Shown here one piece after another: positions 11,139 through 53,562 of a DNA stretch of 64,000 bases (positions are counted from its first letter, which is position 1; each line of letters starts with the position of its first letter). The DNA lies in contig NZ_JANZYP010000040.1 in assembly GCF_025506355.1 (NCBI RefSeq), positions 1 to 64,000 of the forward strand, read 5' to 3'. This stretch comes from Sphaerisporangium corydalis (lineage in GTDB: Bacteria > Actinomycetota > Actinomycetes > Streptosporangiales > Streptosporangiaceae). The notes below the pieces were generated by a model that had not been told where the DNA came from, did no database searches, and was given only the letters and a program-made list of their open reading frames with translations. A program made the translations under genes and the position numbers.

Positions 11139-11305
11139 GATCGCTCCCATGCTGGCGTGAAGCGGGGGGTACACGTCCCGGGGGCAGGACGCGGAAGGGG
11201 GGACCAGGGCGGGCGGGGCGGTTCAGGCCGAATGTTCTCCGCGATTCAAAGCCGTCTCGGTCAGGAGGGGGGCGAGGCAAAGAACGACTCCGTTGGTCAT
11301 TTCTT

Positions 11306-11322
11306 TTAGGAAAGTTTCCTAA
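11306..11322. promoter_or_regulatory. Perfect palindrome, ROK-type operator candidate
   Basis: TTAGGAAAGTTTCCTAA has 8-bp arms around a single G. The sequence lies 168 bp upstream of the first chitinase start. From memory it resembles the AGGAAA/TTTCCT operators of ROK-family repressors of chitosanase and amino-sugar genes in Streptomyces (CsnR type). It is the only copy I found by eye in the window. Confidence 0.6.
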
Positions 11323-11416
11323 GAGTTGCCGCGATCGTAGCCCCGGTCCAGCGCGCCTGCAAGACCCAAACTCCACGGTTTTCCCGCAGGCAGAGTCGTT
11401 CTGACAGGCCAGGTGA

Positions 11417-11432
11417 ACTGGTCTATATCCCT
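11417..11432. promoter_or_regulatory. DasR-like (dre) site
   Basis: ACTGGTCTATATCCCT matches 13 of 16 positions of the DasR consensus ACTGGTCTAGACCACT, with a perfect left half. DasR is the GntR-family repressor that links N-acetylglucosamine to chitinase expression. It lies about 280 bp before the first chitinase start, rather far for direct promoter occlusion. Confidence 0.4.
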
Positions 11433-11481
11433 GCCTGGCGACATATGGTCGGACCCGAATCCGCGACCTGGTGACCGGCCC

Positions 11482-37498: not shown

Positions 37499-38425
37499 TC
37501 ACAGGCGGGGTGGCACCGGCACTCTGGTCAGGTCCTCGGCGATCACGATCTCTCCGGGGAACCAGTGGGCGGCCTGTGCGCGGAAGGCCTCGGGGTCGGG
37601 GTAGCGCTGGGAGAAGTGGGTCAGGACCAGTCGCCGGACGCCGCACTCCCTCGCCACCCGGCCCGCCTCCCCCGCGGTCAGGTGCCCGTGCTCGTGCGCC
37701 AGGCGGGCGTCCTCGTCCAGGAACGTCGACTCGATCACCAGCAGGTCGGCGCCGTCGGCCAGGGCGAACACCGCGTCGCAGAGCCGCGTGTCCATGACGA
37801 AGGCGAAGCGCTGGCCGGGCCGGTGCTCGCTGACCTCTTCCAGCGTGACCGTGCGGCCCCGGGCCCGGACGACGCCCTCCCGTTGCAGCCGGCCGACGCG
37901 CGGCCCGGCGACCCCCCGGTCCCTGAGCCGGTCCGCCGACATCCGCCGCCCGTCCGGCTCGACCAGCCGGTACCCGTACGCCGGCACCGAGTGGTCCAGC
38001 GGGCGGGCCTCGATGCGGCCGAAACGCCCCCTGGCGATCACGCCGCCGCCGTCCGCCACCGGCTCGGGCGCCAGGGTCGCGGCCTCGTGGAACGCGCTGG
38101 CGTGCCGCAGCCGGTCGAAGTACTCGGCGCCCGAGGCGGGGAAGTGCGCGCGCACCGGGTGCCGCACCCGGTCCAGGGACATCCGCTGGATCACCCCGGG
38201 CAGGCCGAGGCAGTGGTCGCCGTGGAAGTGGGTGATCAGGATCCGGTGCACGTCGGTGACGGCGACCCCGGCGTGGATCATCTGCCGCTGGGTGCCCTCC
38301 CCGGGGTCGAACAGCAGGCCCTCACCGTCCCACCGCAGCAGGTAGCCGTTGTGGTTGCGGTGCCTGGTGGGCGTCTGGCTGCCGGTGCCCAGGACGACGA
38401 GTTCGCGCGGCGACACCTGCGCCAC
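37499..38425 (-). CDS. rnz: Ribonuclease Z (tRNA 3' endonuclease)
   Basis: A 308-aa metallo-beta-lactamase-fold nuclease that removes 3' trailers from tRNA precursors. The metal motif HFHGDH is at residues 66-71, preceded by [11 protein letters not shown] (family Asp/Gly/Gln), with later conserved [17 protein letters not shown] and the distal histidine LTHFSQRY. All standard zinc ligands are visible. The GTG start at 38425 is one of two GTGs (the other 38416). It lies 14 bp after the hydrolase gene, so co-transcription is likely. Confidence 0.9.
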
Positions 38426-38439
38426 GATAGCCGCCGCCC

Positions 38440-39327
38440 CTAGAGGTGCTCCCCGAGGAACCGGGCGGTCTCCTCGACGGCCCGCGAGACGTGCGGCTCG
38501 GTGTCGTACAGGTCGATGTGCAGCCGGGCGTCCAGCCAGACGATGCGCTTGGGCTCGTCCATGCGCTTGTACGCCTCCTCGGCCCCCTCGGGGGAGCAGA
38601 AACGGTCCACGACGCCGTGGACGACCAGGCCGGGCTTGGGCGACAGGAAGTCGGCGCCCATCATGTTGTCCATGGTGATCAGCTCGCGGATGGACGCCCG
38701 GGTCACCTCGTTGGCCCACCCCGGCGACGCCGACCGCTCGGTCCCGTAGTACGCGTACGGCTCGTCGCCGCCCATCGCGGCCTCGCCCTCGGCGGCCACC
38801 GCCGGGAGGTAGTCCACCGCTTCGCCGCGGTCCTGCCCTTCGAGTACGTCGGTGAGGCCGGTCAGCGCCTGCTGGTAGCCCTCGTCCGACATGCCGGACC
38901 GCATGGCGTACGGGTTGTTGTACGCCCCGGCGATGCCGACGAAGGCCTTCACCCGGGGGTCGAACGCGGCGAAGCGCAGGGCGTACCCGCCGCCGAGGCA
39001 GATGCCCACGGCGCCGATCCGCCCGGGGTCCACCGAGGGCAGGCCGCGCAGGTACGACACGGCGGCCCGCAGGTCGGCGAGCTTGCCCTGCGGGTCCTCG
39101 TGGCGCCTGGGCGTGCCGCCGGACTCGCCGAAGTTGCGGTGGTCGAACGCCAGCGTCACATACCCCGCCTCGGCGAGCCGCGCCGCGTACAGGCCGGTGA
39201 CCTGTTCCTTCACGCCGGTGAACGGCCCGGTGAACACCAGCGCGGGATGGGGGCCCTCCCCCTGCGGCACCCTGAGGTCGCCGACGAGCGTGAGGCCGTC
39301 GGCGGTGAACTCCACTCGATCACTCAT
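38440..39327 (-). CDS. Dienelactone-hydrolase-like alpha/beta hydrolase
   Basis: A 295-aa alpha/beta hydrolase. The nucleophile elbow is GICLGG with Cys110 in the nucleophile position, as in dienelactone hydrolases. The fold shows GPFTGVKEQ (oxyanion region), [14 protein letters not shown], and a late HIDLYD with the catalytic His region. Substrate unknown; esters or lactones likely. ATG 39327 lacks a strong ribosome site. It is 29 bp downstream of the S9 peptidase gene and ends 14 bp before RNase Z. Confidence 0.8.
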
Positions 39328-39356: not shown

Positions 39357-41201
39357 CTATTCCTCGAACCACCGGCCCAGCCAGTCGATGACGGCCTCCA
39401 CGAAGGTGACCCGGTTGGCCGTGCGCACGGTCTCGTGGCCCTCGTCGTCGAACAGCAGGTAGCGGCAGGGGACGCCGCGCGCGGTGGCGGTGGCCACGAC
39501 CTGCTCGGCCTCGTACACGGGCACGTTGGTGTCCTGGGCGCCGTGGACGACGAGCAGGGGTGCGGTGAGGCGGTCGAAGGAGTGCAGGGGCGACAGGGCG
39601 CGCAGCAGCTCGCGGTCGGCCACCGGGTCGCCGTACTCGGTGACGGCCGCGGCGGCGATCCACGGCTCGGTGCGGGCGTAGAACGTGGCGAAGTCGGCCA
39701 TGCCGCACACGTCGACCCCGGCGGCGAACAGCTCGGGGTAGGTGACCAGGGCGGCGAGGGTGAGGTAGCCGCCGTACGAGCGGCCCATGCAGGCGATCTT
39801 GGCCGGGTCGGCGACGCCGGTGCGCACGACGTGGTCGACGCAGTCCGCGACGTCGTCGATGGCGTGGAAGCGCAGCGCGTGGTTGTCGGCGTCCAGGAAC
39901 GCGCGGCCGAACCCCGAGGAGCCGCGGACGTTCGGCGCCAGCACGCTGATCCCGGCCGCGACGAGCCGCTGGAAGAGCGGGTTGAACGTCGGCCGTTCCT
40001 GGCTCTCGGGCCCGCCGTGCAGGTAGATCGCGCACGGCGCCTTCGGGCCCGCGCGGTACAGCCAGCCGGTCAGCTCCAGCCCGTCCCTGGCCTCGAAGCG
40101 GACCAGCTCGGCATCGAGGCCGTCGGTGAGGGGGTCGTCGCCGGCGACCCGCCGGTAGTCGCCGGTCGCGAGGTCGCACAGCATGACGTACGAGGGGGTG
40201 TCGGGGCCCTCCCCCGCCATGACGGCCAGTGTGCCGTCCAGGGACAGCCGCGCGGAGCTGATCACCTCGGCCGGCGGGGGCGGCAGCGGCCGGGTGACGC
40301 CCTCGACCAGGTCGGCGACCTCCAGCTCCGACCGGCCGGCGACGTTCCAGACCAGCAGGGCCACGGTGCCGTCGACGCTCACCGAGAAGCGGTCGAGCTC
40401 GGCGTCGGCGCGTTCGGCGATCACCTGGGGGGCGCCGCCCATCGGCATGGCGATCAGGGCCATGCGGTCGCGGCCGGCGTTGGAGCGGATGTAGGCCACC
40501 TCGCCGTCCGGGGACAGCGTGCCGAGGTCGGTGGTCGGCGGCAGCAGGGGGCGCTCGGCGCCGAACGGCAGGTCGGCGACCGACATCTCGCGCATGCCGC
40601 GCGGCCCGTGGCGCAGCAGCACCCGGCGGTGGTCGCGGCTCACCGCGCTCGGCCACATCAGCGGCCCGACGGCGATGGTGTCACGGTGCCCGAGGCCCGC
40701 GTCGATCAGGACCGCCTCGGTCGAGCCGGTCCCGGCCAGCTCGGCGACCAGGAGCGTCGACCCCTGGCCGGTCCACCGGACGAACACGGCGGAGCCGCGC
40801 GCGGGGGTGTCGGTCGGGCCGGCGAGCAGGCGGCGGTCGGTGCCGTCGGGCCGTACGGCCCACACCTGCGTGTGCTCTCCGCCGCCCGGCGAGATCATGA
40901 CGGCCAGCCACTGGCCGTCGGGCGACCAGAGCACGTTGCCGACCGGCTCGGGGCCGGTGTCGATCACCCGGGCGAGCGGCGGGTGTGCCGGGGGCGCGCC
41001 GAAGCCGCCCTCCAGCAGCGGCTCGGCTCCCGCGAGCTCGGGCAGGGGCTGGACCCAGGCGCGCGGCGAACCGTCGCGGTCGCTGACGAAGGCGATGGCC
41101 TTGTTGTCAGGTGACAGGGCGGGGAACCGGCAGGTCCACGAGACGTCGACGGTCAGACTCCTTGTGCTTGCAGCCACAACTCCAGGAGCCCAAGTTGCCA
41201 C
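39357..41201 (-). CDS. S9 family (prolyl oligopeptidase-like) peptidase
   Basis: A 614-aa serine peptidase. The N-terminal 350 residues are a WD-like beta-propeller (repeats such as ALSPDNKAIAFVSDRDG and LWSPDGQWLAVMIS). The C-terminal 260 form the catalytic domain with GRSYGG (Ser475), Asp in HGAQDTNVP, and His in DDEGHE. Such enzymes release short peptides or aminoacyl groups. The frame opens at GTG 41201, 49 bp inside the end of the AsnO-like gene; GTG 41177 is an alternative. The tight overlap suggests the peptidase acts on, or recycles, the product of the two genes upstream. Confidence 0.85.
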   Translation of the reverse strand: MATWAPGVVAASTRSLTVDVSWTCRFPALSPDNKAIAFVSDRDGSPRAWVQPLPELAGAEPLLEGGFGAPPAHPPLARVIDTGPEPVGNVLWSPDGQWLAVMISPGGGEHTQVWAVRPDGTDRRLLAGPTDTPARGSAVFVRWTGQGSTLLVAELAGTGSTEAVLIDAGLGHRDTIAVGPLMWPSAVSRDHRRVLLRHGPRGMREMSVADLPFGAERPLLPPTTDLGTLSPDGEVAYIRSNAGRDRMALIAMPMGGAPQVIAERADAELDRFSVSVDGTVALLVWNVAGRSELEVADLVEGVTRPLPPPPAEVISSARLSLDGTLAVMAGEGPDTPSYVMLCDLATGDYRRVAGDDPLTDGLDAELVRFEARDGLELTGWLYRAGPKAPCAIYLHGGPESQERPTFNPLFQRLVAAGISVLAPNVRGSSGFGRAFLDADNHALRFHAIDDVADCVDHVVRTGVADPAKIACMGRSYGGYLTLAALVTYPELFAAGVDVCGMADFATFYARTEPWIAAAAVTEYGDPVADRELLRALSPLHSFDRLTAPLLVVHGAQDTNVPVYEAEQVVATATARGVPCRYLLFDDEGHETVRTANRVTFVEAVIDWLGRWFEE

Positions 41202-42985
41202 AACGCGTTGGCTCCCAGTGTGGTTCTGTGGTCATCCGGCGCGGCCAGCAGTTTATCCACCATCTCGGGCCTGAACAGGCCCCGCGAGCGCGCGGCCGGT
41301 GCGGTCAGGCCGTCGCGGACCATTTCCAGGAACGGCCCGTGGATGTGGCGGATCGCCGGGACGGGGAAGTAGCCCTTGGGCCGGTCGATGACCGCGTCGG
41401 GCACCAGCCCCCGTGCGGCGGCCTTCAGCACCCCCTTGCCTCCGGAGGCGAGCTTGAGCTCGGGCGGGCACATGGCGGCCAGCTCGACCAGGTCGTGGTC
41501 CAGGAACGGGGTGCGCGCCTCCAGGCCGAACGCCATGGTCATGTTGTCGACCCGCTTGACCGGGTCGTCGACCAGCATGACGTTGGTGTCCAGCCGCAGC
41601 ACGGCGTCGAGCGCGGTGTCGGCCCCGGGCATCGCGAGGTGCTCGCGGACGAACGCCTGGCTGACGTCCTCGCCGGCCAGGTAGCCGGGCGTGAGGATCT
41701 CGGCCTGGTCCTGGTGGGTGCGGTCGAAGAAGACCTTGGCGTAGGCGTCGGCGGCGTCCCCGCGCGGAACGTTCTCCAGGGGGGGATACCAGTCGTAGCC
41801 GGCGAAGACCTCGTCGGCGCCCTGCCCGGACTGGACCACCTTGATCTGCTTGGACACCTCCTCCGACAGCAGGTGGAAGGCCACGCAGTCGTGGCTGACC
41901 ATGGGCTCGCTCATGGCCGCGACGGCGTCGTGCAAGGAGGGCAGCAGCCGCTGGTCGTCGACCATGATGCGGTGGTGGTCGGTGCCGAAGCGCCGGGCGA
42001 TCAGGTCGGAGTAGGCGAACTCGTCGCCCGACTCGCCGCCGGCCGCGTGGAACCCGACGCTGAAGGTCGCGAGGTCGCGCTGGCCCTCCTCGGCCAGCAG
42101 GGCGACGATCAGGCTGGAGTCCAGGCCGCCGGAGAGCAGCACACCGACGGGCACGTCCGCGACGGTGCGACGGCGCACGGCCACCCGCAGCGCGTCCAGG
42201 ACGGCCTCGCGCCACTCGTCCGGCCCCATCTCGCCGCCGCCGGGCCGCAGCGTGTCCAGCCGGAGCTGACCCGGCCGGAGCGCTCCGGGGTCGCTCGGGC
42301 GGGTGTACGGGGGGTCCCAGTAGCGCTCGTCGCGGGTTGTGCCGTCGGGCTCGATCGTGCGCACCGTGGCGGGCGGCAGCTTCTCCACGCCGGTCAGGAT
42401 CGTCCGGGGCGAGGGCACCACCGAGTGGAAGGTCATGTAGTGGTGCAGTGCGACGCGGTCGATGTCGGTGCGCACTCCCCCGCCGGCCAGCAGGGCGGGC
42501 AGGGTGGAGGCGAACCGGAGCCGCGCGGCGTCCCGGGTGACGTAGAGCGGCTTGATGCCGAGCCGGTCGCGGCCGAGCACGAGCCGGCCGGTGTCCCGTT
42601 CGGCGACGGCGAAGGCGAACATGCCCTTGAAGTGGTCCACGCAGCGGTGTCCCCAGTGGCGGTAAGCCTTCAGCAGCACCTCGGTGTCGGAGGTGGAGAA
42701 GAACCGGTGGCCCTCGGCCACCAGGACCTCGCGCAGCTCGCGGTAGTTGTACAGGCAGCCGTTGAACACCCCGGCCAGGCCGGCCTCGGCGTCGACCATG
42801 GGCTGTGACCCGCGCTCGGACAGGTCGATGATCTTCAGTCGGCGGTGGCCGAGCGCGACCGGCCCGAGCGACCACAGGCCGGTCCCGTCGGGCCCGCGCG
42901 CGGCCATGGAGGCCGTCATGCGCTCGACGGCGGCCACGTCGGCCGTACGGCCGTCGAAGCGGATCTCACCGGTGAGGCCGCACAT
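41153..42985 (-). CDS. asnO: Asparagine-synthase-type amidotransferase, AsnO-like
   Basis: A 610-aa class II glutamine amidotransferase. Cys2 (MCGLTG) is the glutaminase nucleophile; the AS domain has the PP-loop SGGLDSS (285-291). The signatures FDGRTADVAAVERM, HRRLKIIDLSERGSQPMVDAE and VSHDCVAFHLLSEEVSK fit, from memory, the N-acetylglutaminylglutamine amidotransferase group rather than true asparagine synthetase. It would amidate the C-terminal carboxylate of a small peptide using glutamine and ATP. Its ATG overlaps the stop of the ligase gene (TGATG), and its end overlaps the peptidase gene. Confidence 0.85.
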   Translation of the reverse strand: MCGLTGEIRFDGRTADVAAVERMTASMAARGPDGTGLWSLGPVALGHRRLKIIDLSERGSQPMVDAEAGLAGVFNGCLYNYRELREVLVAEGHRFFSTSDTEVLLKAYRHWGHRCVDHFKGMFAFAVAERDTGRLVLGRDRLGIKPLYVTRDAARLRFASTLPALLAGGGVRTDIDRVALHHYMTFHSVVPSPRTILTGVEKLPPATVRTIEPDGTTRDERYWDPPYTRPSDPGALRPGQLRLDTLRPGGGEMGPDEWREAVLDALRVAVRRRTVADVPVGVLLSGGLDSSLIVALLAEEGQRDLATFSVGFHAAGGESGDEFAYSDLIARRFGTDHHRIMVDDQRLLPSLHDAVAAMSEPMVSHDCVAFHLLSEEVSKQIKVVQSGQGADEVFAGYDWYPPLENVPRGDAADAYAKVFFDRTHQDQAEILTPGYLAGEDVSQAFVREHLAMPGADTALDAVLRLDTNVMLVDDPVKRVDNMTMAFGLEARTPFLDHDLVELAAMCPPELKLASGGKGVLKAAARGLVPDAVIDRPKGYFPVPAIRHIHGPFLEMVRDGLTAPAARSRGLFRPEMVDKLLAAPDDHRTTLGANALWQLGLLELWLQAQGV

Positions 42986-45528
42986 CAGATGACCTTCCTC
43001 AGCAGCCAGGTGTCCTTGGCCCCTCCGCCCAGCGACGAGTTGACGATCATGCTGTCGGGCGGGGCCACGCGGGTCAGCGCGGCCTGCGGGACGATCGACT
43101 GGCGGCCCGTGAACACGAAGGCGCGCAGGTCGATGACGTGCGGGCGCATGCGCTCGCCGTCGAAGGTGGGGTGGGTGGACAGGGCGATGGTCTCCTGGGC
43201 CACCCACCGCTCCGGCGCGGCGAGGATCTCCTCGCGGACGACCTTGAGCTCCTGCGGGGAGGAGTCCTGCCCGATGATCACGCCTTGGCCGCCGAAGCCG
43301 TCGACGGGCTTGACCACCAGCTCGCCGAGCCGGTCGAGCACGAGCTCGCGGTCGTCGGTGTCGCGGCAGAGATAGGTCGTGACGTTGGCGAGCAGAGGGC
43401 GTTCTCCCAGGTAGTAGTCGATGAGACGCGGCACGTAACGGTACAGGCTCTTGTCGTCGGCGACGCCGTTGCCGGGCGCGTTGGCCAGGGTGAGCGTGCC
43501 CCGCTCGACCGCGTCCAGCAGGGCGGCGCCGATCGGGCTGGCCAGCAGGTCGTCCTCGTCGATCCTGCGGTACAGCACGTCCACGCGGCGCCCGGCCGCG
43601 TACACGACGCCGTCACGGACGGCCAGCTCGGCGGGCTCGGCGATGATCGCGTCCATCTGCTCGGCCAGCGTCTTGTGCTCGTAGTACGCGGCGTCGGCCG
43701 GTCCCGAGCTGATCACGCCGATGACGGGGTCGCTCACGGGCGAGGACTCCGTCAGGGCGGTGCGCAGCAGGGAGACGGCCTCCCCGGCGTCCAGGACCGC
43801 CGAACGGTCCAGCTCGGGCAGCACGTGCTCGGCCATCCTGCGGTTGCCGACCGCGTAGCCGATGCCGGACGGCACCCGGAGGTTGTCCTCCAGGACGACC
43901 CACCGCCCGGCGCCGTCACGGGCCACGTCCAGCCCGGCGACGGTGCACCTGACCGATCCGGCGTGCACCCGCCAGCCCGCGGGCCGGTAGCCGGGCGACT
44001 CGTCGACGACCCAGGCGGGGAGCACGCGGTCCTTGATCACCTCGCGCCTGCCGTACACGTCGCGCAGGAAGGCCTCCAGGGCGCGGACGCGCTGCGGCAT
44101 CCCCTCCTGGATCTTCGCCCAGTCGTCGGCCGCGACCAGCCGGGGGACCAGGTCGACGGCCATCTTGCGACCGGTGACCGTCTCCTCCAGGATCTCGCCG
44201 CCGGGGCCTCTAGCCTGGAAGGTCATGCCGGTATCGCGCATGTAGCGGTCGCGCGTGATCTCCCGCTCCCGCAGCTCGGCGGACCCGAGCCCGTCGAGCA
44301 CCTTGAGCACCGGCTGGTAGGGCGCGCGGACGGTGCCCACGATCACGGCCTCGTCCTGCACCGCGTCGTACCCCTTGAGCAGGCTGGTCTCCATGCCCGG
44401 GTTGGGGCCGCCGAACTCGGCCTGCCAGACGTCGGAGCGGGTCTCGGCGACCAGCAGGTCCACGATGTCGCTCATGGTCCCGCCGCGCTCCAGCACGCGC
44501 CGCTGCCGGGCGGCGGAGCTGCCCTTGGCCAGGGCCTCCTCGGCCAGCGTGGTGACCAGGTCCCAGTCGCCGGTCGCGTCGAGCTGAGGGCGCAGCCCGG
44601 CGAGCATCCGCCTGACGACCTCGGCGGCCGGGAGCGGTACGCCCTCGACGGGGTCGACGAGCTTGCCCTCCAGGCCCGAGCGCGCCGAGCGCCAGGTGGC
44701 CGCGCGGACCATCTCCATGCGGATGGGGGCCGTCGGGGCGTCGCTCTCGATGGCGTGCAGCTCGCGCAGGACGATCGCGCGGAAGATGCCGGCCAGCAGG
44801 ACGACCTTGCCCACGTTGGGGCAGGCGTCGCACATGCGCAGCTCGACCGTGGACACGTGCGCGGACGGGCGGACATCGAAGTAGATCATTCCGGGGTCGC
44901 TGATCACCCCGGACCGCACGAGGTCGGTGACCATCTGGTCGTACTCGGCGGCCGAGGCGTACCGGCGGACCGGGCCGGTGGTGGGCCACCGGTTCCAGAC
45001 GAGGGTGCGGTAGCTGGCGTACCCGCTGTCGGCGCCGAGCCAGTACGGGGAGCTGGCGCTGAGGGCCAGCAGCGGCGGCAGCCACGGGGACACGCGGTGG
45101 GCCACCTCGACCGCGAGATCGCGGTTGGCGACGTCCACGTGCACCTGGGCGCCGCAGATGAGCTGCTCGCGCGTGAGGAGCTGGTAGTCCTCCAGCATCT
45201 GCTCGTAGCGGGCGTTCGGCGAGATCTCCAGGGCGGCCGGGTCGACCAGCGGCACGCCCCCCGCCGCCACGATCCCGAGCCCGAGGCCGTCCGCGGCCTC
45301 GATGACCGTGCGCCGGAGCGCGGTCAGGTCGTGCCCGAGGTCCTCGAGCCGGACGTACGGGCGGCTGTTGGCCTCGACCACCGACCGCTGCAACTCCTGG
45401 GTGAACCGCGCCCCCGGTAGCCGCTCAAGGAGGTGACCTGCGCGTGGGACGAGGTGGCGAGTCTCGAGGTCCACAACGTGGAACTCCTCCTCGACGCCTA
45501 CGGCGACCGACTCCGCGAGACCCGACAT
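42985..45528 (-). CDS. GCS2 carboxylate-amine ligase fused to circularly permuted ATP-grasp
   Basis: An 847-aa two-domain amino-acid ligase. Residues 1-370 are a YbdK/GCS2 glutamate-cysteine-ligase-like domain with GVEEEFHVVD (11-20), ISPNARYEQM and AQVHVDV. Residues about 375-847 are a circularly permuted type 2 ATP-grasp (LEDNLRVPSGIGY, ADAAYYEH, VKPVDGFGGQGVIIG with Lys740). Published comparative work on amidoligases (Iyer and colleagues, 2009) predicted that such fusions make small peptides. The ATG follows AAGGA by about seven bases and a hairpin leader. I infer that it forms the peptide later amidated by the AsnO-like enzyme. Confidence 0.85.
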   Translation of the reverse strand: MSGLAESVAVGVEEEFHVVDLETRHLVPRAGHLLERLPGARFTQELQRSVVEANSRPYVRLEDLGHDLTALRRTVIEAADGLGLGIVAAGGVPLVDPAALEISPNARYEQMLEDYQLLTREQLICGAQVHVDVANRDLAVEVAHRVSPWLPPLLALSASSPYWLGADSGYASYRTLVWNRWPTTGPVRRYASAAEYDQMVTDLVRSGVISDPGMIYFDVRPSAHVSTVELRMCDACPNVGKVVLLAGIFRAIVLRELHAIESDAPTAPIRMEMVRAATWRSARSGLEGKLVDPVEGVPLPAAEVVRRMLAGLRPQLDATGDWDLVTTLAEEALAKGSSAARQRRVLERGGTMSDIVDLLVAETRSDVWQAEFGGPNPGMETSLLKGYDAVQDEAVIVGTVRAPYQPVLKVLDGLGSAELREREITRDRYMRDTGMTFQARGPGGEILEETVTGRKMAVDLVPRLVAADDWAKIQEGMPQRVRALEAFLRDVYGRREVIKDRVLPAWVVDESPGYRPAGWRVHAGSVRCTVAGLDVARDGAGRWVVLEDNLRVPSGIGYAVGNRRMAEHVLPELDRSAVLDAGEAVSLLRTALTESSPVSDPVIGVISSGPADAAYYEHKTLAEQMDAIIAEPAELAVRDGVVYAAGRRVDVLYRRIDEDDLLASPIGAALLDAVERGTLTLANAPGNGVADDKSLYRYVPRLIDYYLGERPLLANVTTYLCRDTDDRELVLDRLGELVVKPVDGFGGQGVIIGQDSSPQELKVVREEILAAPERWVAQETIALSTHPTFDGERMRPHVIDLRAFVFTGRQSIVPQAALTRVAPPDSMIVNSSLGGGAKDTWLLRKVI

Positions 45529-45738: not shown

Positions 45739-46320
45739 TCAGTCCCGGCGTCCGCCCGGGGCCGCGAGGGAGACCAGCAGCGCGTCGATCGCGTCGAGCC
45801 GCCGGTTCAGCGCGGCGATGTCGTCCTTGTCGGCGCTCTGCTCCTCCGGCTTGAGGGTGAGCACCAGCTGGCCGGTCTCGGCCAGCTCGCCGATCGCGAT
45901 CTCGGCCATGTCGTCGCCGTTCTGCATCCGGATCGCGTGTTCGAGCTGCTGGGGGTGGATCCCGAGGCGGCGCAGGTTCTCGGTCATGGGCCGCCCGTCC
46001 CGGATGACCACGGTCGAGGTGCCGTGCAGGATCCGCGAGACGCGTTCGTAGCGCACGGCCAGGTGGTTGAGCAGCTCGTTGGTCCCCACCAGGGCGACGG
46101 CCCCGACGACGCCCCCGAGGAGGCTGTTGTCGGAGCCGATCACGGCGTTCTGCACGACGTTGGAGAGCAGGAAGATCACCACGAAGTCGAAGGTGGTCAT
46201 CCCGGCGAGGTCACGCTTGCCGACCAGCCGGAAGATCACCACGATCAGGGCGTACACCAGAATGGTGCGGATGAGCTTCTCGACCACAGGGATCTGAATC
46301 GTTAGCATATCGTGCCACAC
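45739..46320 (-). CDS. DUF421 (YetF-like) membrane protein
   Basis: A 193-aa protein with three N-terminal membrane segments (about 12-100) and a cytosolic DUF421-type domain. The family block RILHGTSTVVIRDGRPMTENLRRLGI is followed by EIAIGELAETGQLVLTLKPEE. YetF-type proteins are widespread with unclear function. The GTG start at 46320 has AGGAGG six to seven bases upstream and is better than the downstream ATG at 46308. The gene lies between the polyamine-type oxidase and the ligase operon on the same strand. Confidence 0.85.
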   Translation of the reverse strand: MWHDMLTIQIPVVEKLIRTILVYALIVVIFRLVGKRDLAGMTTFDFVVIFLLSNVVQNAVIGSDNSLLGGVVGAVALVGTNELLNHLAVRYERVSRILHGTSTVVIRDGRPMTENLRRLGIHPQQLEHAIRMQNGDDMAEIAIGELAETGQLVLTLKPEEQSADKDDIAALNRRLDAIDALLVSLAAPGGRRD

Positions 46321-46379
46321 GGGATGCCTCCTCGTCGGGGCCGCGGAGCGGGGTCTCCGACGAGTCTCCTCCGGCGGCG

Positions 46380-47783
46380 CTAGGAGTCGAAGCCCAGCCC
46401 CAGCCGGTCCAGGGTCCGGAGCCACAGGTCGCGGCGTCCCTGGTGCGCGTCCGCCCGGGCGATCGACCGGCGGGTGAGCTGGATGACGCCCGACCTGACC
46501 GGCTCGGGCGGGAACGGCACCGGCTTCTCGCGCACCATCCGGAGCCCGGTGCGCTCGGTCGGCTCCCCCGACAGCAGGTCCAGCATCACGTCCGCGCCGA
46601 ACCGCGTCGCCCCCACGCCCAGCCCGGTGTAGCCCACCGCGTAGGCCAGCCGTCCCTTGTGCGCCGTACCGAAGAACGCGCTGAACCGGCTGCAGGTGTC
46701 GATCACCCCGCCCCAGCGGTGGGTGAACCGCACGCCCGCGAGCTGCGGGAACGTCGCGTAGAAGTGCCGGGCCAGGGTCGTGAACGTGGCGTCCCGCTGC
46801 TCGTACTCCTCCTTGACCCGTCCCCCGTTGTGGTACACCGCGTCGTACCCGCCCCACAGGATCCTGTTGTCGTCGGTGAGCCGGTAGTAGTGGAACTGGT
46901 TGGCGCTGTCGCCGATGCCCTGCCGGTTGCGCCAGCCGATCGCGGCGAGTTGCCCGGCGGTCAGCGGCTCGGTCATCAGCGCGTAGTCGTACACCGGCAC
47001 CAGATAGTTGCGCAGCCGGCCGAGCAGCGGCGGGAAGACCCCCGTCCCGAGGGCCACCCTGCCCGCGCGCACCGTGCCGTGCGGGGTGACCAGCTCCAGG
47101 GCCGCCCCGTCGCCGGTGATCGACCGTACGGGGGTGTGCTCGTGGACGCGCACGCCGAGCGACAGGCACGCCTCCCGCAGGCCCCACGCGAGCCGCGCCG
47201 GGTCGAGCATCGCGCAGCCGTCGCGGTCCCACTGGCCGCCGACGTACGTCGGCGAGTCCACCTCGGCGCGCACCTCCCCTGCGTCCAGCATCGTCAGGTC
47301 AAGGCCCAGCCGGCGGGCGACCTCGGTGTCCTCGGCCAGCCCGTCGAGCTGCCACGGCTCGGTGGCCACGTGCAGCTCGCCGGTGCGCTCGAACGAGCAG
47401 TCGATGCCGTACCGCGCGACCGTCCGCCCGATCTCGTCGAGGTTCTGGGCGCCGAACCGCACGAGCGTGGAGATCTCCGCGGGCCAGCGGGCCAGGCCGT
47501 TGCCGAGCCCGTGGGTGAGGCTGGCGGCGCAGAACCCGCCGTTGCGTCCCGACGCCGCCCAGCCGGCCCGCCGTGCCTCCAGCAGGACCACGTCCGCCGA
47601 AGGGTCGCGCTCCTTGGCCAGCAGGGCGGTCCACAGGCCGGTGAACCCGCCGCCGACCACCGCGAGGTCGGCCCGCGCCGGCCCCGGCAGCCGCTCCGAC
47701 GGCTCGGGTCTCCCCGGCCGGTCCAGCCAGTACGGCTTACGCTCCGCGTCGGCCAGTGCTTTCAGCGGATCCACGAATTCCAC
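46380..47783 (-). CDS. puuB: FAD-dependent oxidoreductase, gamma-glutamylputrescine oxidase-like
   Basis: A 467-aa DAO-family flavoenzyme. The FAD motif VVGGGFTGLWTAL is near residue 42, with the downstream GRNGGFCAASLTHG and the C-terminal YAVGYTGLGVGATRFGADVMLDLL. It resembles PuuB (oxidation of gamma-glutamylputrescine), though related enzymes oxidise other amines. Position between polyamine transport genes and the aminobutyraldehyde dehydrogenase supports a polyamine role. The GTG start at 47783 has only a weak site. A PuuA/GlnA3-type glutamylating synthetase was not found here. Confidence 0.75.
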   Translation of the reverse strand: MEFVDPLKALADAERKPYWLDRPGRPEPSERLPGPARADLAVVGGGFTGLWTALLAKERDPSADVVLLEARRAGWAASGRNGGFCAASLTHGLGNGLARWPAEISTLVRFGAQNLDEIGRTVARYGIDCSFERTGELHVATEPWQLDGLAEDTEVARRLGLDLTMLDAGEVRAEVDSPTYVGGQWDRDGCAMLDPARLAWGLREACLSLGVRVHEHTPVRSITGDGAALELVTPHGTVRAGRVALGTGVFPPLLGRLRNYLVPVYDYALMTEPLTAGQLAAIGWRNRQGIGDSANQFHYYRLTDDNRILWGGYDAVYHNGGRVKEEYEQRDATFTTLARHFYATFPQLAGVRFTHRWGGVIDTCSRFSAFFGTAHKGRLAYAVGYTGLGVGATRFGADVMLDLLSGEPTERTGLRMVREKPVPFPPEPVRSGVIQLTRRSIARADAHQGRRDLWLRTLDRLGLGFDS

Positions 47784-47840
47784 GTCCCCACGAATCAGGT
47801 CTCGCCCGGTCTCCCCGGCCCGCGCCGGATGCCCCGCGCG

Positions 47841-48704
47841 TCAGGAGCGGCGCCGGGAGGTCAGCGTGTTGACCACGGCGATGGCCACGCCGACCGCGAA
47901 GATCAGCGTGCCGAGGATGTTGACCTGCGGCGGCACCCCGATGCGGACCGCGCCGTAGATCCACAGCGGGAAGGTGATCGTCGCGCCGCTGGTGAACTGG
48001 GTGATGACGAAGTCGTCGATCGACAGGGCGAAGGCGAGCAGCGCACCGGAGACGACGCCCGGCAGGATCATCGGGAACGTGACCCGCCAGAACGTGATCC
48101 ACGTCGAGGCGCCGAGGTCGCGCGCGGCCTCCTCGATCGACCCGTCCAGGCCCACGACGCGCGCCCGCACGGTCACCGCGACGAACGACACCGAGAACAG
48201 CACGTGCGCGAGCACGATCGTCGTGTACCCGGTCTGCACGCCGAGGCTGATGAACAGCGACAGCAGCGAGGCGCCCATGACCAGCTCGGGCGAGGAGATC
48301 GCCGCGAACATCACCAGGTTGGTGGCGGCCTGGCCGCGGAAGCGGTAGCGGCCGAGCGCGATGCCCATCAGCGTGCCGAGCACGGTGGTGACCAGGGTGG
48401 CCAGCAGCGCGATGGAGATCGAGTTCGTCACGGCGGTGGTGAGGTCGGGGTAGTCGCCGAGCCGTCCCCACCACTTCAGCGTGAAGCCCTGCCAGCTCAC
48501 GTTGGACTTGCTCTTGGTGTCGTTGAAGCCGAACGCGATCATGACCGCGATCGGGGCGAACAGCCACAGCAGGACCAGCCAGGTGTAGCCGAACAGCAGG
48601 CGGTCGCCCCACCGGACCCGCCTGCGGCGCAGCGGCCCGACCGAGGGCGTCACGGTGCCGGGGCCGGCCTCGGCCGGCGGCGCGGGACTGAGCGGCCCGC
48701 TCAT
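47841..48704 (-). CDS. potC: Polyamine ABC transporter permease (PotC-like)
   Basis: A 287-aa membrane protein with six predicted membrane segments and the binding-protein-dependent transport motif EEAARDLGASTWITFWRVTFP, where the ATPase docks. An N-terminal extension of about 35 residues precedes the first segment. Its ATG overlaps the PotB-like stop as ATGA. It forms a heterodimeric channel with the PotB-like protein. Confidence 0.85.
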   Translation of the reverse strand: MSGPLSPAPPAEAGPGTVTPSVGPLRRRRVRWGDRLLFGYTWLVLLWLFAPIAVMIAFGFNDTKSKSNVSWQGFTLKWWGRLGDYPDLTTAVTNSISIALLATLVTTVLGTLMGIALGRYRFRGQAATNLVMFAAISSPELVMGASLLSLFISLGVQTGYTTIVLAHVLFSVSFVAVTVRARVVGLDGSIEEAARDLGASTWITFWRVTFPMILPGVVSGALLAFALSIDDFVITQFTSGATITFPLWIYGAVRIGVPPQVNILGTLIFAVGVAIAVVNTLTSRRRS

Positions 48705-49555
48705 CGCGCCGCCGCCTCGAGGACGTTCTCGGTGCCGAGGGCCTTCGCGTAGACGAAGATGCCGATGAGCATGGCCGCCATCAGCGTGAACGACAGCGCG
48801 GCGCCGGCCGGATAGTCGTTGTTCACGAGGTACTCCGTCTGGATGATGTTGCCGATCATCGTGTTGGACGGGCCGCCGAGGATGGAGGCGTTGACGTAGT
48901 CCGAGGTCATCGGGACGAACGTCATCAGCACCCCGGCGAACACGCCCGGCAGCGAGAGCGGGAGCACGATCTTGGTGAACGAGTCGCGGGCGGTGGAGTA
49001 CAGGTCGTAGGACGCCTCGACGACCCGGGGGTCCACCCGCTCCAGCGCCACGTAGATCGGCAGGATCATGAACGGCAGGTAGTTGTAGGTGAGGCCGCCC
49101 ACCACCGCCACCGTCGTCTGCAGCACGTGGAAGCCGGCCGGCACCAGGCCGAGGTCCTTCAGCGGCTGGAGCAGGATGCCGTCGTCGGCGAGCAGGAACT
49201 TCCACGAGACGGTCCGCAGCACGAACGACACGAAGAACGGCAGCAGCACCAGCAGCAGGTACGTCGACTTGCGCGCGCCGCCCTTGAACGCGATCCAGTA
49301 GGCCACCGGGTAGGCCAGCGCGATCGTCAGCAGCGTCCCCGCCAGGCCGTACCCGGCCGACCGCAGGAACTGCGTCTTGTACTCGACCAGCGCGTCGGTG
49401 AAGTTGGCCAGGTGGAAGGTCTGGACGAAGCCGTTCACGACATCGCCCTCCTGGGTGGAGACCGAGGCCATGAAGACCAGCGGCACCACCAGGAAGATCA
49501 CCAGCCAGAGCCCGCCCGGCAGGATGAGAAGGTACGGCGCGATCTTGCGTCTCAT
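48701..49555 (-). CDS. potB: Polyamine ABC transporter permease (PotB-like)
   Basis: A 284-aa permease with six membrane segments and the EAA-type loop VEASYDLYSTARDSFTKIVLPLSLPG. Order in the operon is ATPase, binding protein, PotB, PotC, as in many actinobacterial spermidine/putrescine systems. It is separated by 4 bp from the binding-protein gene and overlaps PotC by 4 bp. Confidence 0.85.
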   Translation of the reverse strand: MRRKIAPYLLILPGGLWLVIFLVVPLVFMASVSTQEGDVVNGFVQTFHLANFTDALVEYKTQFLRSAGYGLAGTLLTIALAYPVAYWIAFKGGARKSTYLLLVLLPFFVSFVLRTVSWKFLLADDGILLQPLKDLGLVPAGFHVLQTTVAVVGGLTYNYLPFMILPIYVALERVDPRVVEASYDLYSTARDSFTKIVLPLSLPGVFAGVLMTFVPMTSDYVNASILGGPSNTMIGNIIQTEYLVNNDYPAGAALSFTLMAAMLIGIFVYAKALGTENVLEAAAR

Positions 49556-49559
49556 GGTC

Positions 49560-50822
49560 CTAGCCTTGGGTGATCGGCTGGAAGATTCCTTCGAAGACCT
49601 TCTCCTCGGCGGACGTCAGCGTCTTGTAGGAGCGCAGCTTGGCCATGTCGGCCTCGGAGGGGTAGATCAGCGGGCTGCTCGCCATCAGCTCCAGCGACTT
49701 CTTCTCGTCACCGCTGGCCTTGTCGGCCTCGGCCTTGACCAGGGCCTGGGTGGCGGGCACCGGGGTGATGTAGGTGATGTACTTCGCCAGCGTGGCGGCG
49801 ACCTCGGGCTGGTAGACGAAGTCCATCATGGCGAGCGCGTCGACCGGGTTCTGCGCGGTCTTCGGGATGCACATGTTGTCGGTCCAGATGTTGCCGCCCT
49901 CGTCGGGGACGACGAACTTCAGGTCCTGGCCCTCGGCGACCTGCTGGTAGATGTCCCCCGACCAGGCCATGCAGATCCAGATGTCACCGCGGACCAGCGC
50001 GTCCACGTAGTCGTTCTCATAGTATTTCCGGACGATTCCGGCGTCGCGCTGCTCCTGCAGCTTGACCCCGGCCTTCTCCCAGTCCGCCTGGACGGACTTG
50101 TCCGGGTCGATGCCCAGCAGGAACATCCCGAAGTTGGCGATCTCCTGGCTGTCGAGCAGCATCCCGACCTTGCCCTTGTACTTGGGGTTCCAGAGCTCCT
50201 TGATGCTCGTGACATCCCCGTCGATGTACTTCGGGTTGTACGCGATGCCCGTCAGGCCCGACTGCCACGGAACGGTGTAGGTGTTGTTCGGGTCGAACGT
50301 CGGGTTCTTGTAGCGGGCGCCCGCGTTGGCGGCGAAGTTCGGCAGCTTGGAGTGGTCGAGCTGGACCAGGTACCCGAGGGCGATGGCCCGGCCGAGCTGG
50401 ATGCCGTTGGTCATGACCATCAGGTCGTAGCCGATGTCCTGGCCGGCGCTGAGCTGCGGCTGGATCTTGCCGAACCAGGTGGAGTTGTCCTGGATCGCCT
50501 CCTGGTAGGTCACCTTGATCCCGGTGTCCTTGGTGAACTTCTCCAGGGTCGGGTACTTCTTTCCCTCTTTGTCGATGTAGAGGGGCCAGTTGGCGAAGCG
50601 CAGCGTGCCGGTCTTCTTCTTGTCGGCCCAGTACCCTGCGGCGGCGCTCGCCTGCGGGGCCGCGACCTTCTTCCCCTGGACGCCGCAGGCGGCGAGGCCG
50701 AGAGCGGCGGCGGACAGGCCCGCCACGCGCAGGGCGTCGCGGCGGGTGATCGGGGAGCCGGTCCGCCCGCGACTCTGGGTCAGGCCACGCAGGAACGCGA
50801 GGTCACGAGGAGTGTTGGTCAT
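49560..50822 (-). CDS. potD: Spermidine/putrescine-binding lipoprotein (PotD-like)
   Basis: A 420-aa substrate-binding protein. The N terminus has a twin-arginine motif TRRDALRVAGL and a lipobox LAAC, indicating a Tat-exported lipoprotein. The mature part matches PotD: RFANWPLYID, FTKDTGIKVTYQEAIQDNSTWFG, and WICMAWSGDIYQQVAEG. ATG 50822 follows AGGAAG at a long 12-base spacing; a GTG-less upstream extension is not needed. It starts 8 bp after the PotA stop. Confidence 0.87.
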   Translation of the reverse strand: MTNTPRDLAFLRGLTQSRGRTGSPITRRDALRVAGLSAAALGLAACGVQGKKVAAPQASAAAGYWADKKKTGTLRFANWPLYIDKEGKKYPTLEKFTKDTGIKVTYQEAIQDNSTWFGKIQPQLSAGQDIGYDLMVMTNGIQLGRAIALGYLVQLDHSKLPNFAANAGARYKNPTFDPNNTYTVPWQSGLTGIAYNPKYIDGDVTSIKELWNPKYKGKVGMLLDSQEIANFGMFLLGIDPDKSVQADWEKAGVKLQEQRDAGIVRKYYENDYVDALVRGDIWICMAWSGDIYQQVAEGQDLKFVVPDEGGNIWTDNMCIPKTAQNPVDALAMMDFVYQPEVAATLAKYITYITPVPATQALVKAEADKASGDEKKSLELMASSPLIYPSEADMAKLRSYKTLTSAEEKVFEGIFQPITQG

Positions 50823-50830
50823 GAGGTGGG

Positions 50831-51982
50831 TCAACTTCCTATCGCGTACGAGTGTTGCGGCTGCCACGACAGCCAGACCGAGTCACCGCGCTCGGCCGTG
50901 ATGCTGCTGTCCCTGGCGTTCTGCTCGAAGACCGTGAACTCGGCACCGCCGGCGAGGTTCACGGCGTAGCTGTTGTAGGTGCCGAGGTAGACGACCTCGG
51001 CCACGGTGCCGCGCACGGCGCTGACGTCCGACGCCGGCTCCTCGTGCGAGATCCTGATCTTCTCCGGGCGCACGGTCACCTCGACCGCGCCCCCCTGCAG
51101 GGTGCCCTCGGCCACCGGGACCAGCACCCGGTCACGGTCACCGACCTTGATGATGGCCGTGCCGTCGTGGACGTCCTCCGCCGTGCCGCTCAGCAGGTTG
51201 GAGGTGCCGATGAACCCCGCGACGAACTTGCTCGCCGGGCGCTCGTAGATCTCCCTGGGCCCCGCGAGCTGCTCGACCAGGCCGTCGTTCATGACGGCGA
51301 TGCGGTCGCTCATCGTGAGCGCCTCGTTCTGGTCGTGGGTGACGTAGACGAAGGTGATGCCGACCTCGCGCTGGATCCGCTTCAGCTCGATCTGCATCTG
51401 CTGGCGCAGCTTCAGGTCCAGCGCGCCGAGCGGCTCGTCCAGCAGCAGGGCCCTCGGGTTGTTGACCAGGGCGCGCGCCAGCGCGACCCGCTGCTGCTGG
51501 CCGCCCGACATCTCCCGAGGGCGGCGCTTCTCCCGGCCGGTGAGGTCGACGATCTCCAGCATCTCGCCGACCCGCCGCTTGATCTCCTCGTCGGGGACGC
51601 GCTTGCGCCGCAGCCCGAACGCCACGTTCTCCCAGACGTTCATGTGTGGGAACAGCGCGTAGGACTGGAAGACCATGTTCACGTCGCGCTTGTTCGGCGG
51701 GACGTCGGTGACGTCCTGACCGTGCAGCCGGACGGTGCCCCGGGTGGGATCCTCGAACCCGGCGATCATACGCATCGTGGTGGTCTTGCCGCACCCGGAG
51801 GGGCCGAGCATCGAGAAGAACTCGCCCTCGGTGATCGACAGGCTGACCCCCTTGACCGCCTGTACGACCTCGCCGTGCGCTAGGTATTCCTTGACGACCC
51901 CGTCGAGTTCGATGGCGGGCACCGGGGAGATGTCGGAAGCGGCCGCGGAGGCTGCCTCCTCGCCCGCCTGGATTTCGGTCAT
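50831..51982 (-). CDS. potA: Polyamine ABC transporter ATPase (PotA-like)
   Basis: A 383-aa ATPase with Walker [10 protein letters not shown], the Q-loop [10 protein letters not shown], signature LSGG replaced by [16 protein letters not shown], and Walker [12 protein letters not shown], followed by a C-terminal TOBE-like regulatory domain (about 290-375). All nucleotide-binding residues are intact. It powers import through the PotB/PotC pair. It starts the four-gene transporter operon, 146 bp after the aldehyde dehydrogenase gene. Confidence 0.9.
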
Positions 51983-52128
51983 TCCAGGGCTATCCCTCTT
52001 CTATGTCGGCGATGGTGCGCCGATGTAGTGAGTGTCAGTTGCCGTGATGGTCGTTCGCCGATGTGCTTCGTGATCAGATGTCGTGATGGTCGTTCGCTGT
52101 GCCGGATGCTCGGGTGCTCGGGTGCCGG
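51983..52128. other. Spacer with decayed short repeats
   Basis: A 146-bp gap in which CGTGATGGTCGTTCGC occurs at 52043-52058 and again at 52082-52097. The sequence near 52018-52030 also resembles the 3' end of the downstream dehydrogenase gene (CCGATGTAGTG). It looks like remnants of local duplication. It probably contains the transporter promoter; none was convincing. Confidence 0.55.
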
Positions 52129-53562
52129 TCATTCACCGATGTAGTGCATGACGTGCTTGACCCGGGTGTAGTCGTGCAGCCCGAAGACCGACAGGTCCTT
52201 GCCGTAACCGGAGTGCTTGAAGCCGCCGTGCGGCATCTCCGACACGAACGGGATGTGGGTGTTCACCCAGACCACGCCGAAGTCCAGCCGCCGGGACATC
52301 CGCATCGCCCGGCCGTGGTCGGAGGTCCACACCGACGCCGACAGGCCGTACTGCACGTCGTTGGCCTTGGCGAGCGCGTCGGCCTCGTCGGAGAAGGTCT
52401 GCACGGTGATGACCGGCCCGAACACCTCGGTCTGGATCATCTCGTCGTCCTGCCGGAGGCCGTCTACGACGGTCGGCTCGAACACGAAGCCCTTCTCGCC
52501 GACGCGCTTCCCGCCGGTGACGATCTTCGCGTGGCCCGGGGTCCGCTCCAGGAAGCCCTCGACCCTGGCGAGCTGGTTCTCGTTGTTGAGCGGGCCGTAG
52601 TAGGCGTCCTCGGTGTCCAGGCCGCCGGTCGCGGTGGCCGCCGCCGCCTCGGCGAGCGCCGCCACGAACGGCTCGTGGATGCTCTCGTGGACGAGGACCC
52701 GGCAGGCCGCGGTGCAGTCCTGCCCCGCGTTGTACAGGCCGGCCCCGGCGATCGCCCCGGCCACGGCGCCGATGTTCTTGACGTCGTCGAACACGACGAC
52801 GGGGGCCTTGCCGCCCAGCTCAAGGTGGACCCGCTTGAGGTCCTCGGCCGCGGACTTGGCGACCTGGACGCCCGCGCCCACCGAACCGGTGATCGCGACC
52901 ATCGAGGCGGTGGGGTGGGCGACGACGGTGGCGCCGGTCTCCCGGTCGCCGACGACGACGTTGAACACGCCCGCCGGAAGAATCGTGCCCATGATCTCGG
53001 CCAGCTTCACGGTCGAGACCGGAGTGGTGTCGGAGGGCTTGAGCACGACCGTGTTGCCCGCGGCCAGCGCCGGCGCGCACTTCCAGATCGCCATCATCAG
53101 CGGGTAGTTCCACGGGGTGACCTGCCCCACGACGCCGATCGGCTCGTGCCGGATCACCGAGGTGTGGTCGGCGAGGAACTCGCCGGAGGTCGGGCCCTCA
53201 AGGGTCCGCGCGGCACCCGCGAAGAAGCGGAAGTGGTCGGCGGCCGGCGGGATCTCGTCCTCGGCCATGCGCGCCCGGGGCTTGCCCGTGTTCAGGCACT
53301 CCGCCTCGACAAGCTCCTCGGCCCGTGCTTCGATGGCATCAGCGATCTTCAGCAGGTAGCCGGCCCGCTCGGCCGGCGTCGTCTGACCCCACGAGTCGAA
53401 CGCCGCCGCCGCGGCGGCGTAGGCCGCGTCGACGTCCTCCTGCCCGGAGACCGGTGCCTGGAGGTAGACCTCCCCTGTGCTCGGATCGATCACATCGGAG
53501 AACCGGCCGCTCCTGGCGTCCGCGAGTTCTCCGTTGATGAAGTTCTGCAGACGGGTGGTCAA
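52129..53562 (-). CDS. Aldehyde dehydrogenase, gamma-aminobutyraldehyde-type
   Basis: A 477-aa NAD-dependent aldehyde dehydrogenase. Catalytic Glu is in LELGGKAP and catalytic Cys283 in GQDC; the NAD motif VTPWNYPLMMA and GSVGAG are present. From memory it resembles 4-aminobutyraldehyde dehydrogenases of putrescine catabolism, consistent with its neighbours. The start is TTG at 53562 with an excellent GAGGAGG six bases upstream; a 14-bp palindrome overlaps this start. Confidence 0.88.
   Translation of the reverse strand: MTTRLQNFINGELADARSGRFSDVIDPSTGEVYLQAPVSGQEDVDAAYAAAAAAFDSWGQTTPAERAGYLLKIADAIEARAEELVEAECLNTGKPRARMAEDEIPPAADHFRFFAGAARTLEGPTSGEFLADHTSVIRHEPIGVVGQVTPWNYPLMMAIWKCAPALAAGNTVVLKPSDTTPVSTVKLAEIMGTILPAGVFNVVVGDRETGATVVAHPTASMVAITGSVGAGVQVAKSAAEDLKRVHLELGGKAPVVVFDDVKNIGAVAGAIAGAGLYNAGQDCTAACRVLVHESIHEPFVAALAEAAAATATGGLDTEDAYYGPLNNENQLARVEGFLERTPGHAKIVTGGKRVGEKGFVFEPTVVDGLRQDDEMIQTEVFGPVITVQTFSDEADALAKANDVQYGLSASVWTSDHGRAMRMSRRLDFGVVWVNTHIPFVSEMPHGGFKHSGYGKDLSVFGLHDYTRVKHVMHYIGE

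Follow-up and report, generated by a model that had tools for sequence, protein, structure and literature searches.

A GCS2-type ligase coupled to an AsnO-like amidotransferase: a candidate Ngs-free route to amidated peptides in Sphaerisporangium corydalis and other Actinomycetota

The stretch of Sphaerisporangium corydalis DNA analysed here (contig NZ_JANZYP010000040.1, positions 1 to 64,000; hereafter the window) carries three overlapping genes on the minus strand, from 45528 to 39357, coding in this order for a fusion of a GCS2 carboxylate-amine ligase with a circularly permuted (CP) ATP-grasp, an AsnO-like amidotransferase and an S9-family peptidase. Several independent lines of evidence support the view that a different ligase here feeds an amidotransferase of the type known from the synthesis of N-acetylglutaminylglutamine amide (NAGGN), a dipeptide that protects against salt and whose usual ligase is Ngs. 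We give about an even chance to the proposal that the operon is the Ngs-free counterpart of the NAGGN trio, that is, a cytosolic route building, capping and recycling a small C-terminally amidated peptide. This proposal is based on the domains of the three proteins, on the conservation of their putative catalytic residues, on the coupling of the genes, on the separate branch formed by this type of AsnO and on the exchange of Ngs (with M42) for GCS2 (with or without ATP-grasp) and S9. The elements of the locus are the following:

42985..45528, minus strand: fusion ligase gene, 847 aa, GCS2 carboxylate-amine ligase plus circularly permuted ATP-grasp (open reading frame; Pfam and NF010041)
44671..45501, minus strand: GCS2 domain, aa 10-286 (Pfam)
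43063..44145, minus strand: CP_ATPgrasp_2 domain, aa 462-822 (Pfam)
42983..42987 (plus-strand numbering, genes on the minus strand): TGATG junction, overlap of the fusion stop codon and the AsnO start codon (read directly)
41153..42985, minus strand: AsnO-like amidotransferase, 610 aa, beginning MCG (N-terminal Cys) (TIGR03104)
39357..41201, minus strand: S9-family peptidase (prolyl oligopeptidase fold), 606-614 aa, start uncertain (Pfam Peptidase_S9)

An earlier note on this DNA had described three genes overlapping at each junction, with TGATG between ligase and amidotransferase and 49 bp shared by amidotransferase and peptidase. Direct reading placed all three frames as described and bore out the overlaps and the TGATG. 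The 49 bp are correct if the peptidase starts with the GTG at 41201; with the start at 41177, preferred by the simple script used for gene calling, whose start positions are approximate, the overlap is 25 bases. The arrangement is not a matter of chance: the order fusion, AsnO, S9 is kept in all six Sphaerisporangium loci, although these were found via the fusion.

The amidotransferase belongs clearly to the NAGGN type. It matches TIGR03104 (N-acetylglutaminylglutamine amidotransferase) with 957 bits (cut-off 570.1) and Asn_synthase with 296 bits, and is the only TIGR03104 match above cut-off in the genome. The NAGGN trio consists of AsnO and Ngs, often accompanied by an M42 peptidase (TIGR03106), and NAGGN synthesis was reportedly shown in S. 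meliloti by Sagot in 2010. The window operon resembles this trio in its AsnO, which falls in the same family model and is 59% identical over 590 aa to that of S. meliloti 1021, and in its logic of ligase, amidotransferase and peptidase. It differs in having no Ngs and instead a GCS2 ligase, which elsewhere occurs with or without the CP-ATP-grasp, in carrying S9 for M42, and in an AsnO from a separate branch with R587 in place of L or I.

Ngs (GNAT plus ATP-grasp, TIGR03103) was not found anywhere in the S. corydalis genome (99.4% complete), in agreement with the earlier note: the best match reaches 34.5 bits, for a cut-off of 569, and matches as weak as this are seen in each of the 14 control genomes too. 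Of 394 genomes drawn from the class, 106 contain TIGR03104, 52 TIGR03103 and 46 the fusion (including G111, for which two pieces of a single open frame were reported, and G224, where it is cut by the contig end). Ngs is present in 49 of the AsnO genomes and absent from 57. The fusion and AsnO are common to 38 genomes and adjacent in 36, and the draw contains no genome that combines AsnO, Ngs and a full-length fusion (0 of the 38 with fusion and AsnO, 0 of the 49 with Ngs and AsnO).

Since the searches of class and phylum scored the best 2-4 candidates per genome and undercounted lone GCS2 genes, the AsnO locus was read directly in all 57 Ngs-less genomes, as well as in 12 Ngs-AsnO loci. In the former, AsnO adjoins a fusion in 36 genomes, a lone GCS2 in 14, S9 without an adjacent ligase in five and no partner in two, one of which (G370) is cut by the contig end. 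Among the five S9-only genomes, G307 and G369 carry the fusion on another contig, G190 has a short fusion-like remnant upstream, G173 has a more distant GCS2 in the locus, and in G139 no ligase was found beside AsnO. The 635-640 aa proteins encoded upstream of AsnO in G307 and G369 were considered as a third type of ligase and rejected: by eye they are NmrA-like or alcohol-dehydrogenase-like, and the fusion lies elsewhere in these genomes. Wherever ligase and AsnO are adjacent, the ligase is upstream and on the same strand (56 of 56 pairs, 50 from the draw and six from named genomes), and the two genes overlap in nine pairs. The genomes are related, and the draw over-represents one family, f17, probably Frankia-like, which supplies 31 of the 36 adjacent fusions; p values from Fisher tests, which take no account of relatedness, are for this reason not relied on. 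The pairing nevertheless recurs in families f1, f4, f10, f17, f33 and f42, in f79 of another class and, unfused, in f58, with GCS2 alone in f1 and f18.

Three draw genomes with Ngs, G064, G345 and G329, lack AsnO: their Ngs loci (L104, L105 and L190, respectively) contain no AsnO and no TIGR03104 match was found genome-wide at 1e-150. Judging by gene content, such genomes would give unamidated N-acetyl-Gln-Gln.

Phylogenetic analysis separates the two types of AsnO. In all three trees the AsnO sequences of GCS2, fusion or S9 context form one side of a branch, with 61 context rows together in the tree of 84 rows (support 92), 64 in that of 91 (support 98) and 65 in that of 101 (support 99). In the last, window-type AsnO does not group with Ngs-linked AsnO, 29 rows of which, including the pSymB sequence of S. 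meliloti 1021, lie opposite. The trees hold 19 to 29 Ngs-linked rows, although 49 draw genomes have Ngs and AsnO; these rows come from the 12 loci fetched and from 30 further AsnO loci, of which only new rows passing a start and length filter were taken. In none of the three trees do the AsnO sequences of G196b, G297 and G370 join the GCS2 branch. G196 has a second AsnO gene (L136 9835-12545), oriented divergently to a GCS2 gene and to one that resembles glutamine synthetase by eye.

At position 587 all 65 rows of the GCS2 branch have R, whereas the 29 Ngs-linked rows have L (28) or I (one, S. meliloti); some of positions 589 to 594 also differ between the contexts. Median identity is 65.5% across contexts and 69-70% inside one context, only one column differs at >=90% in each, and 187 columns are >=95% the same in both types, with synthetase motifs alike. 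That the motifs are retained and the 587-594 patch varies with the type of ligase hints, but does not prove, that substrates in both contexts have a similar C-terminal end and differ in the remainder.

Both halves of the fusion ligase are well defined. The first matches Pfam GCS2 (PF04107) with 183 bits (cut-off 21), and the second matches CP_ATPgrasp_2 (PF14403) with 383 bits (cut-off 32) over the whole model, positions 1-374 of 374. The protein also exceeds the cut-off of NF010041 (361.7 bits, cut-off 332) and stays far under those of the gshA_cyano and EgtA models. The GCS2 enzymes GshA and EgtA are glutamate gamma-carboxylate ligases. The putative catalytic residues E13, E15, E52, H130, R220, E229 and R231, whose active-site role we assume from alignment with YbdK and GCL, are conserved in all covering rows among 72, two fusion rows stopping short of E13/E15; this count excludes two paralogue rows near AsnO (the second copy of G259 and G196b) and 25 other rows set aside as paralogues ('para'). 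The putative metal, ATP and glutamate residues are conserved in fused and lone GCS2 alike. The ATP-grasp motifs LEDN, PSG, V-KP and DLR, and the KDTW at aa 838-841, which follows the CP_ATPgrasp_2 domain, are kept in 53-54 of 54 full-length fusions.

Among known enzymes, YbdK-type GCS2 ligases (PDB 1r8g and 1tt4) align over profile positions 4-358 with 162 and 159 bits; the window protein differs in its fusion with an ATP-grasp and its link to AsnO. The CP type 2 ATP-grasp 3n6x ('Putative glutathionylspermidine synthase') matches with 417 bits over profile positions 388-832, with the difference that here this half is fused behind GCS2; many other genomes of the draw match with this half alone. 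GshF, a fused glutathione synthetase, is broadly alike in that a GCS-fold ligase and an ATP-grasp succeed each other in a single chain. In GshF, however, the GCS and ATP-grasp parts belong to other families, whereas here the ATP-grasp half can be missing and the next gene codes for an amidotransferase.

The core partner of Ngs-less AsnO is the GCS2 ligase, and the ATP-grasp half is not obligatory. The CP_ATPgrasp_2 domain was not found genome-wide in 12 of the 14 genomes with a lone GCS2 beside AsnO (the other two, G191 and G208, have one elsewhere). In the GCS2 tree (99 rows thinned to 83; six paralogue fetches yielded no row) the GCS2-only rows of f1 lie nested within the fused ones, in the manner of a domain loss, with a Streptomyces-like set outside them. 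The idea that the ATP-grasp is the essential new part was abandoned on these grounds; because many relatives do without it, this half appears as an add-on. All GCS2 partners of AsnO, fused or lone, fall in one clade (support 100/99), apart from three GCS2 genes of AsnO loci (the second copy of G259, G196b and G173); the clade also contains fusions without AsnO and 10 other GCS2 rows. The order GCS2, AsnO, S9 is found in records of Nonomuraea gerenzanensis, Embleya sp. NBC_00888 and Streptomyces fungicidicus, the last of which labels the genes 'glutamate--cysteine ligase', 'N-acetylglutaminylglutamine amidotransferase' and 'alpha/beta fold hydrolase'. The suggestion that the GCS2/ATP-grasp fusion replaces Ngs is supported for its GCS2 part, but a need for the ATP-grasp part is not. 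That a GCS2-type ligase takes the place of Ngs is upheld by the genuine NAGGN-type AsnO, by the lack of draw AsnO genomes with both ligases and by the separate AsnO branches.

Outside the class the picture is similar. Among 296 genomes drawn from the phylum, the fusion passed E 1e-180 in the window genome and in G482, which belongs to another class and again has AsnO and S9. Of 22 AsnO genomes of other classes, 20 were read: 15 have Ngs, one the fusion, one (G515) a lone divergent GCS2, and three belong to f58. In all three f58 genomes an unfused CP-ATP-grasp gene lies directly before AsnO, and in two of them it is preceded by a divergent GCS2 gene, scoring 47 and 44 bits with Pfam GCS2 (cut-off 21); the frames are broken in one of the two:

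L235 2187-4884 and L238 6606-9306: unfused divergent GCS2 and CP-ATP-grasp before AsnO (frames look broken in L235)

The f58 AsnO sequences form a separate lineage (three rows, support 100). Because both ligase types adjoin AsnO, unfused, in this second lineage, there is strong circumstantial evidence that GCS2 and CP-ATP-grasp belong to one pathway with AsnO.

The third gene codes for an S9 protein (Pfam Peptidase_S9, PF00326, 154 bits) in which no signal peptide was seen by eye. Its triad of Ser467, Asp549 and His581 (606-aa numbering) is conserved at 1.0 in the 54 rows longer than 480 aa, out of 57 in the family. The nearest solved chain is 5l8s, 'Amino acyl peptidase'; the hits that follow include acylamino-acid-releasing enzymes, which act on N-acylated peptides, alongside other S9 peptidases. 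Ngs-less AsnO is regularly accompanied by the S9 peptidase, which lies within three same-strand genes of it in 49 of 63 non-Ngs loci (57 from the draw and six named). M42 occurs within the same distance in eight of 12 Ngs loci and in none of 61 GCS2, fusion or S9 loci; the window has S9 instead.

A working scheme can be proposed for the Ngs-free operon. The GCS2 half most likely would use ATP to activate the gamma carboxylate of glutamate and couple this to the amine of another amino acid, so that gamma-glutamyl-X results, and the ATP-grasp half, where present, would most likely perform one further ligation. AsnO would then draw ammonia from glutamine and convert the C-terminal carboxylate into a primary amide, and the S9 peptidase would hydrolyse the product when no longer wanted. 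The individual chemical steps, the gamma linkage, the nature of X and any function as a stress solute are inferred.

Several observations weigh against this proposal. The fusion occurs without AsnO genome-wide in eight of the 46 fusion genomes of the draw, and also in Naasia, and the fusion may have its own job, some copies adjoining S9 alone. The earlier note proposed to test whether the fusion always lies beside AsnO and never with Ngs; neither holds. Adjacency was seen in 36 of the 46 draw fusion genomes, in only five of 15 outside f17, and in six of ten named fusion loci, four being without adjacent AsnO. As to Ngs, it occurs together with the fusion in G064, and three named genomes (two Quadrisphaera and one Actinomycetales metagenome-assembled genome) have AsnO-Ngs as well as a fusion-S9 pair, separated by ~9 kb in Quadrisphaera granulorum and ~10 kb in Quadrisphaera sp. 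INWT6 if contig numbers match. Mutual exclusion of fusion and Ngs as a strict rule was thus dropped; it holds for the AsnO genomes of the draw and is broken by G064, which lacks AsnO, and by these three genomes. In two of six Sphaerisporangium relatives TIGR03103 gave partial hits of 172 and 165 bits, far under the cut-off of 569, that cover the ATP-grasp part, and S9 was not found in six loci of genus g80. In the part of the Frankia study PMC5563000 consulted, the synthesis genes named as stress-induced are those of trehalose, glutamate and threonine, and not this cluster. Finally, 22 f17 loci carry a GNAT gene after AsnO or S9, as the first to third gene after AsnO and in 21 of 22 on the same strand, an arrangement that would suit an N-acetylated product.

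The Quadrisphaera AsnO sits on the Ngs-linked side of the AsnO tree. On locus L025 of Q. granulorum (3-2135 and 10007-14496) an Ngs-like tail and an M42 gene lie on the same stretch as the fusion-S9 pair.

The f17 GNAT protein has a constant length of 141 aa (e.g. L137 7099-7524), and the one scanned matches Pfam Acetyltransf_1 with 44.6 bits. It keeps alive an alternative in which the end product is still NAGGN, being a possible source of the acetyl group otherwise provided by Ngs: the fusion or lone GCS2 would replace the ligase part of Ngs non-orthologously and a separate acetyltransferase would add the acetyl group. We consider this unlikely, yet deserving of attention. It would suit the closeness of AsnO across contexts, the presence of peptidases acting on N-acylated peptides among the solved chains close to the S9 protein, and a GNAT-like gene of weak match (E 9e-6) four genes downstream in G307; moreover, the authors of the Frankia studies, in the portions used here, assign such genes to NAGGN (PMC5563000, PMC5768760). 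Against it, no other GNAT-like gene was seen near AsnO of the other GCS2-context lineages in a weak two-profile search, the AsnO branch is distinct at 587-594, and M42 is missing from GCS2-context loci. In addition, GCS/GS-fold ligases generally use the gamma-glutamyl carboxylate and NAGGN has an alpha peptide bond.

A thiol resembling glutathione amide, in which GCS2 would make gamma-Glu-Cys, the ATP-grasp half would add a third residue and AsnO would amidate the end, is improbable. GCS2 does belong to the glutamate-cysteine-ligase family, the ATP-grasp half is nearest to the putative glutathionylspermidine synthase chain 3n6x, and genes resembling AhpC and AhpD by eye are each present in 18 f17 loci, an OxyR-like regulator being encoded in 17. 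But the AhpC/AhpD pair did not turn up outside f17 loci, an OsmC-like gene was seen in one Streptomyces and three f17 loci (two of them without AsnO), and this peroxide link was rejected as lineage-bound; moreover, 12 of the 14 GCS2-only genomes lack the ATP-grasp half. We find it similarly improbable that, instead of an abundant small solute, the operon yields a specialised metabolite or a peptide used to tag proteins. GCS2/GS-fold ligases include the protein-tagging PafA and several fusions lie outside any AsnO context, but the gene-order table shows no further gene family common to loci of different lineages, and AsnO closely resembles an enzyme whose product is a free dipeptide. That there is no pathway at all, each gene acting alone in an inherited synteny, finds some comfort in the dominance of f17 among adjacent fusions; given the recurrence of the pairing across families and the overlap of ligase and AsnO genes in nine of 56 pairs, it is very improbable indeed.

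The GCS2 operon can also be compared with published accounts. GCS2/ATP-grasp operons were reportedly treated by Iyer in 2009, and this one may be among them. No paper linking GCS2 or CP-ATP-grasp with AsnO appeared among the matches listed. According to the part of PMC5563000 consulted, the Frankia 'asnO-ngg cluster' has the order asnO, dipeptidase, 'ngg', which equals the AsnO-S9-GNAT order of many f17 loci, and the 'Ngg' of Casuarina Frankia has <15% identity to known ones. The difference is that in f17 the 'ngg' position is occupied by the 141-aa GNAT, with the likely ligase located upstream of asnO; on this comparison the published 'Ngg' is probably the GNAT misread, and the upstream ligase was probably overlooked. 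In the Frankia alni proteome, as excerpted from PMC5768760, FRAAL1888 (2.20) and FRAAL2171 (1.5) are up with polyethylene glycol (PEG) and assigned to NAGGN synthesis; these tags could not be matched to this operon. The consulted portion of PMC8146288 reports that the actinobacterium Micromonospora provocatoris yielded NAGGN on isolation and carries asnO and ngg genes.

Upstream of the operon the window carries, on the minus strand (45739-53562), genes for a DUF421 protein, an FAD oxidoreductase (Pfam DAO), ABC-transporter-like proteins and an aldehyde-dehydrogenase-like protein. By eye these suggest polyamine uptake and oxidation; this link was set aside, the genes being conserved in Sphaerisporangium loci only and not in other lineages. 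Downstream lies a metallo-beta-lactamase-fold gene (37499-38719, minus strand; Pfam Lactamase_B_2), with a match to Anti-Pycsar Apyc1 of 27.7 bits, below the cut-off (50). No plasmid record contained >=80% of the fusion in one place.

AsnO stands in a GCS2, fusion or S9 context in 55 of the 106 AsnO genomes of the class draw. More tentatively, and with somewhat less than an even chance of being right, we propose that in many Actinomycetota, including Frankia-like bacteria and Streptomyces, the genes of this kind labelled 'N-acetylglutaminylglutamine amidotransferase' serve an undescribed class of gamma-glutamyl peptide amides, whose synthesis would fall to a GCS2 ligase, optionally joined by a CP ATP-grasp, and whose turnover to a dedicated S9 peptidase, so that the NAGGN label would be wrong in about half of the AsnO genomes of the class. 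If this is true, an annotation that has spread widely is misleading in a large part of actinobacterial genomes, and studies of salt tolerance in Frankia that deduce NAGGN synthesis from asnO would need correction. It would also provide a function for a GCS2 subfamily and for part of the CP-ATP-grasp family, and would point to an unrecognised metabolite pool in Streptomyces, Nonomuraea, Sphaerisporangium and Frankia-like bacteria.

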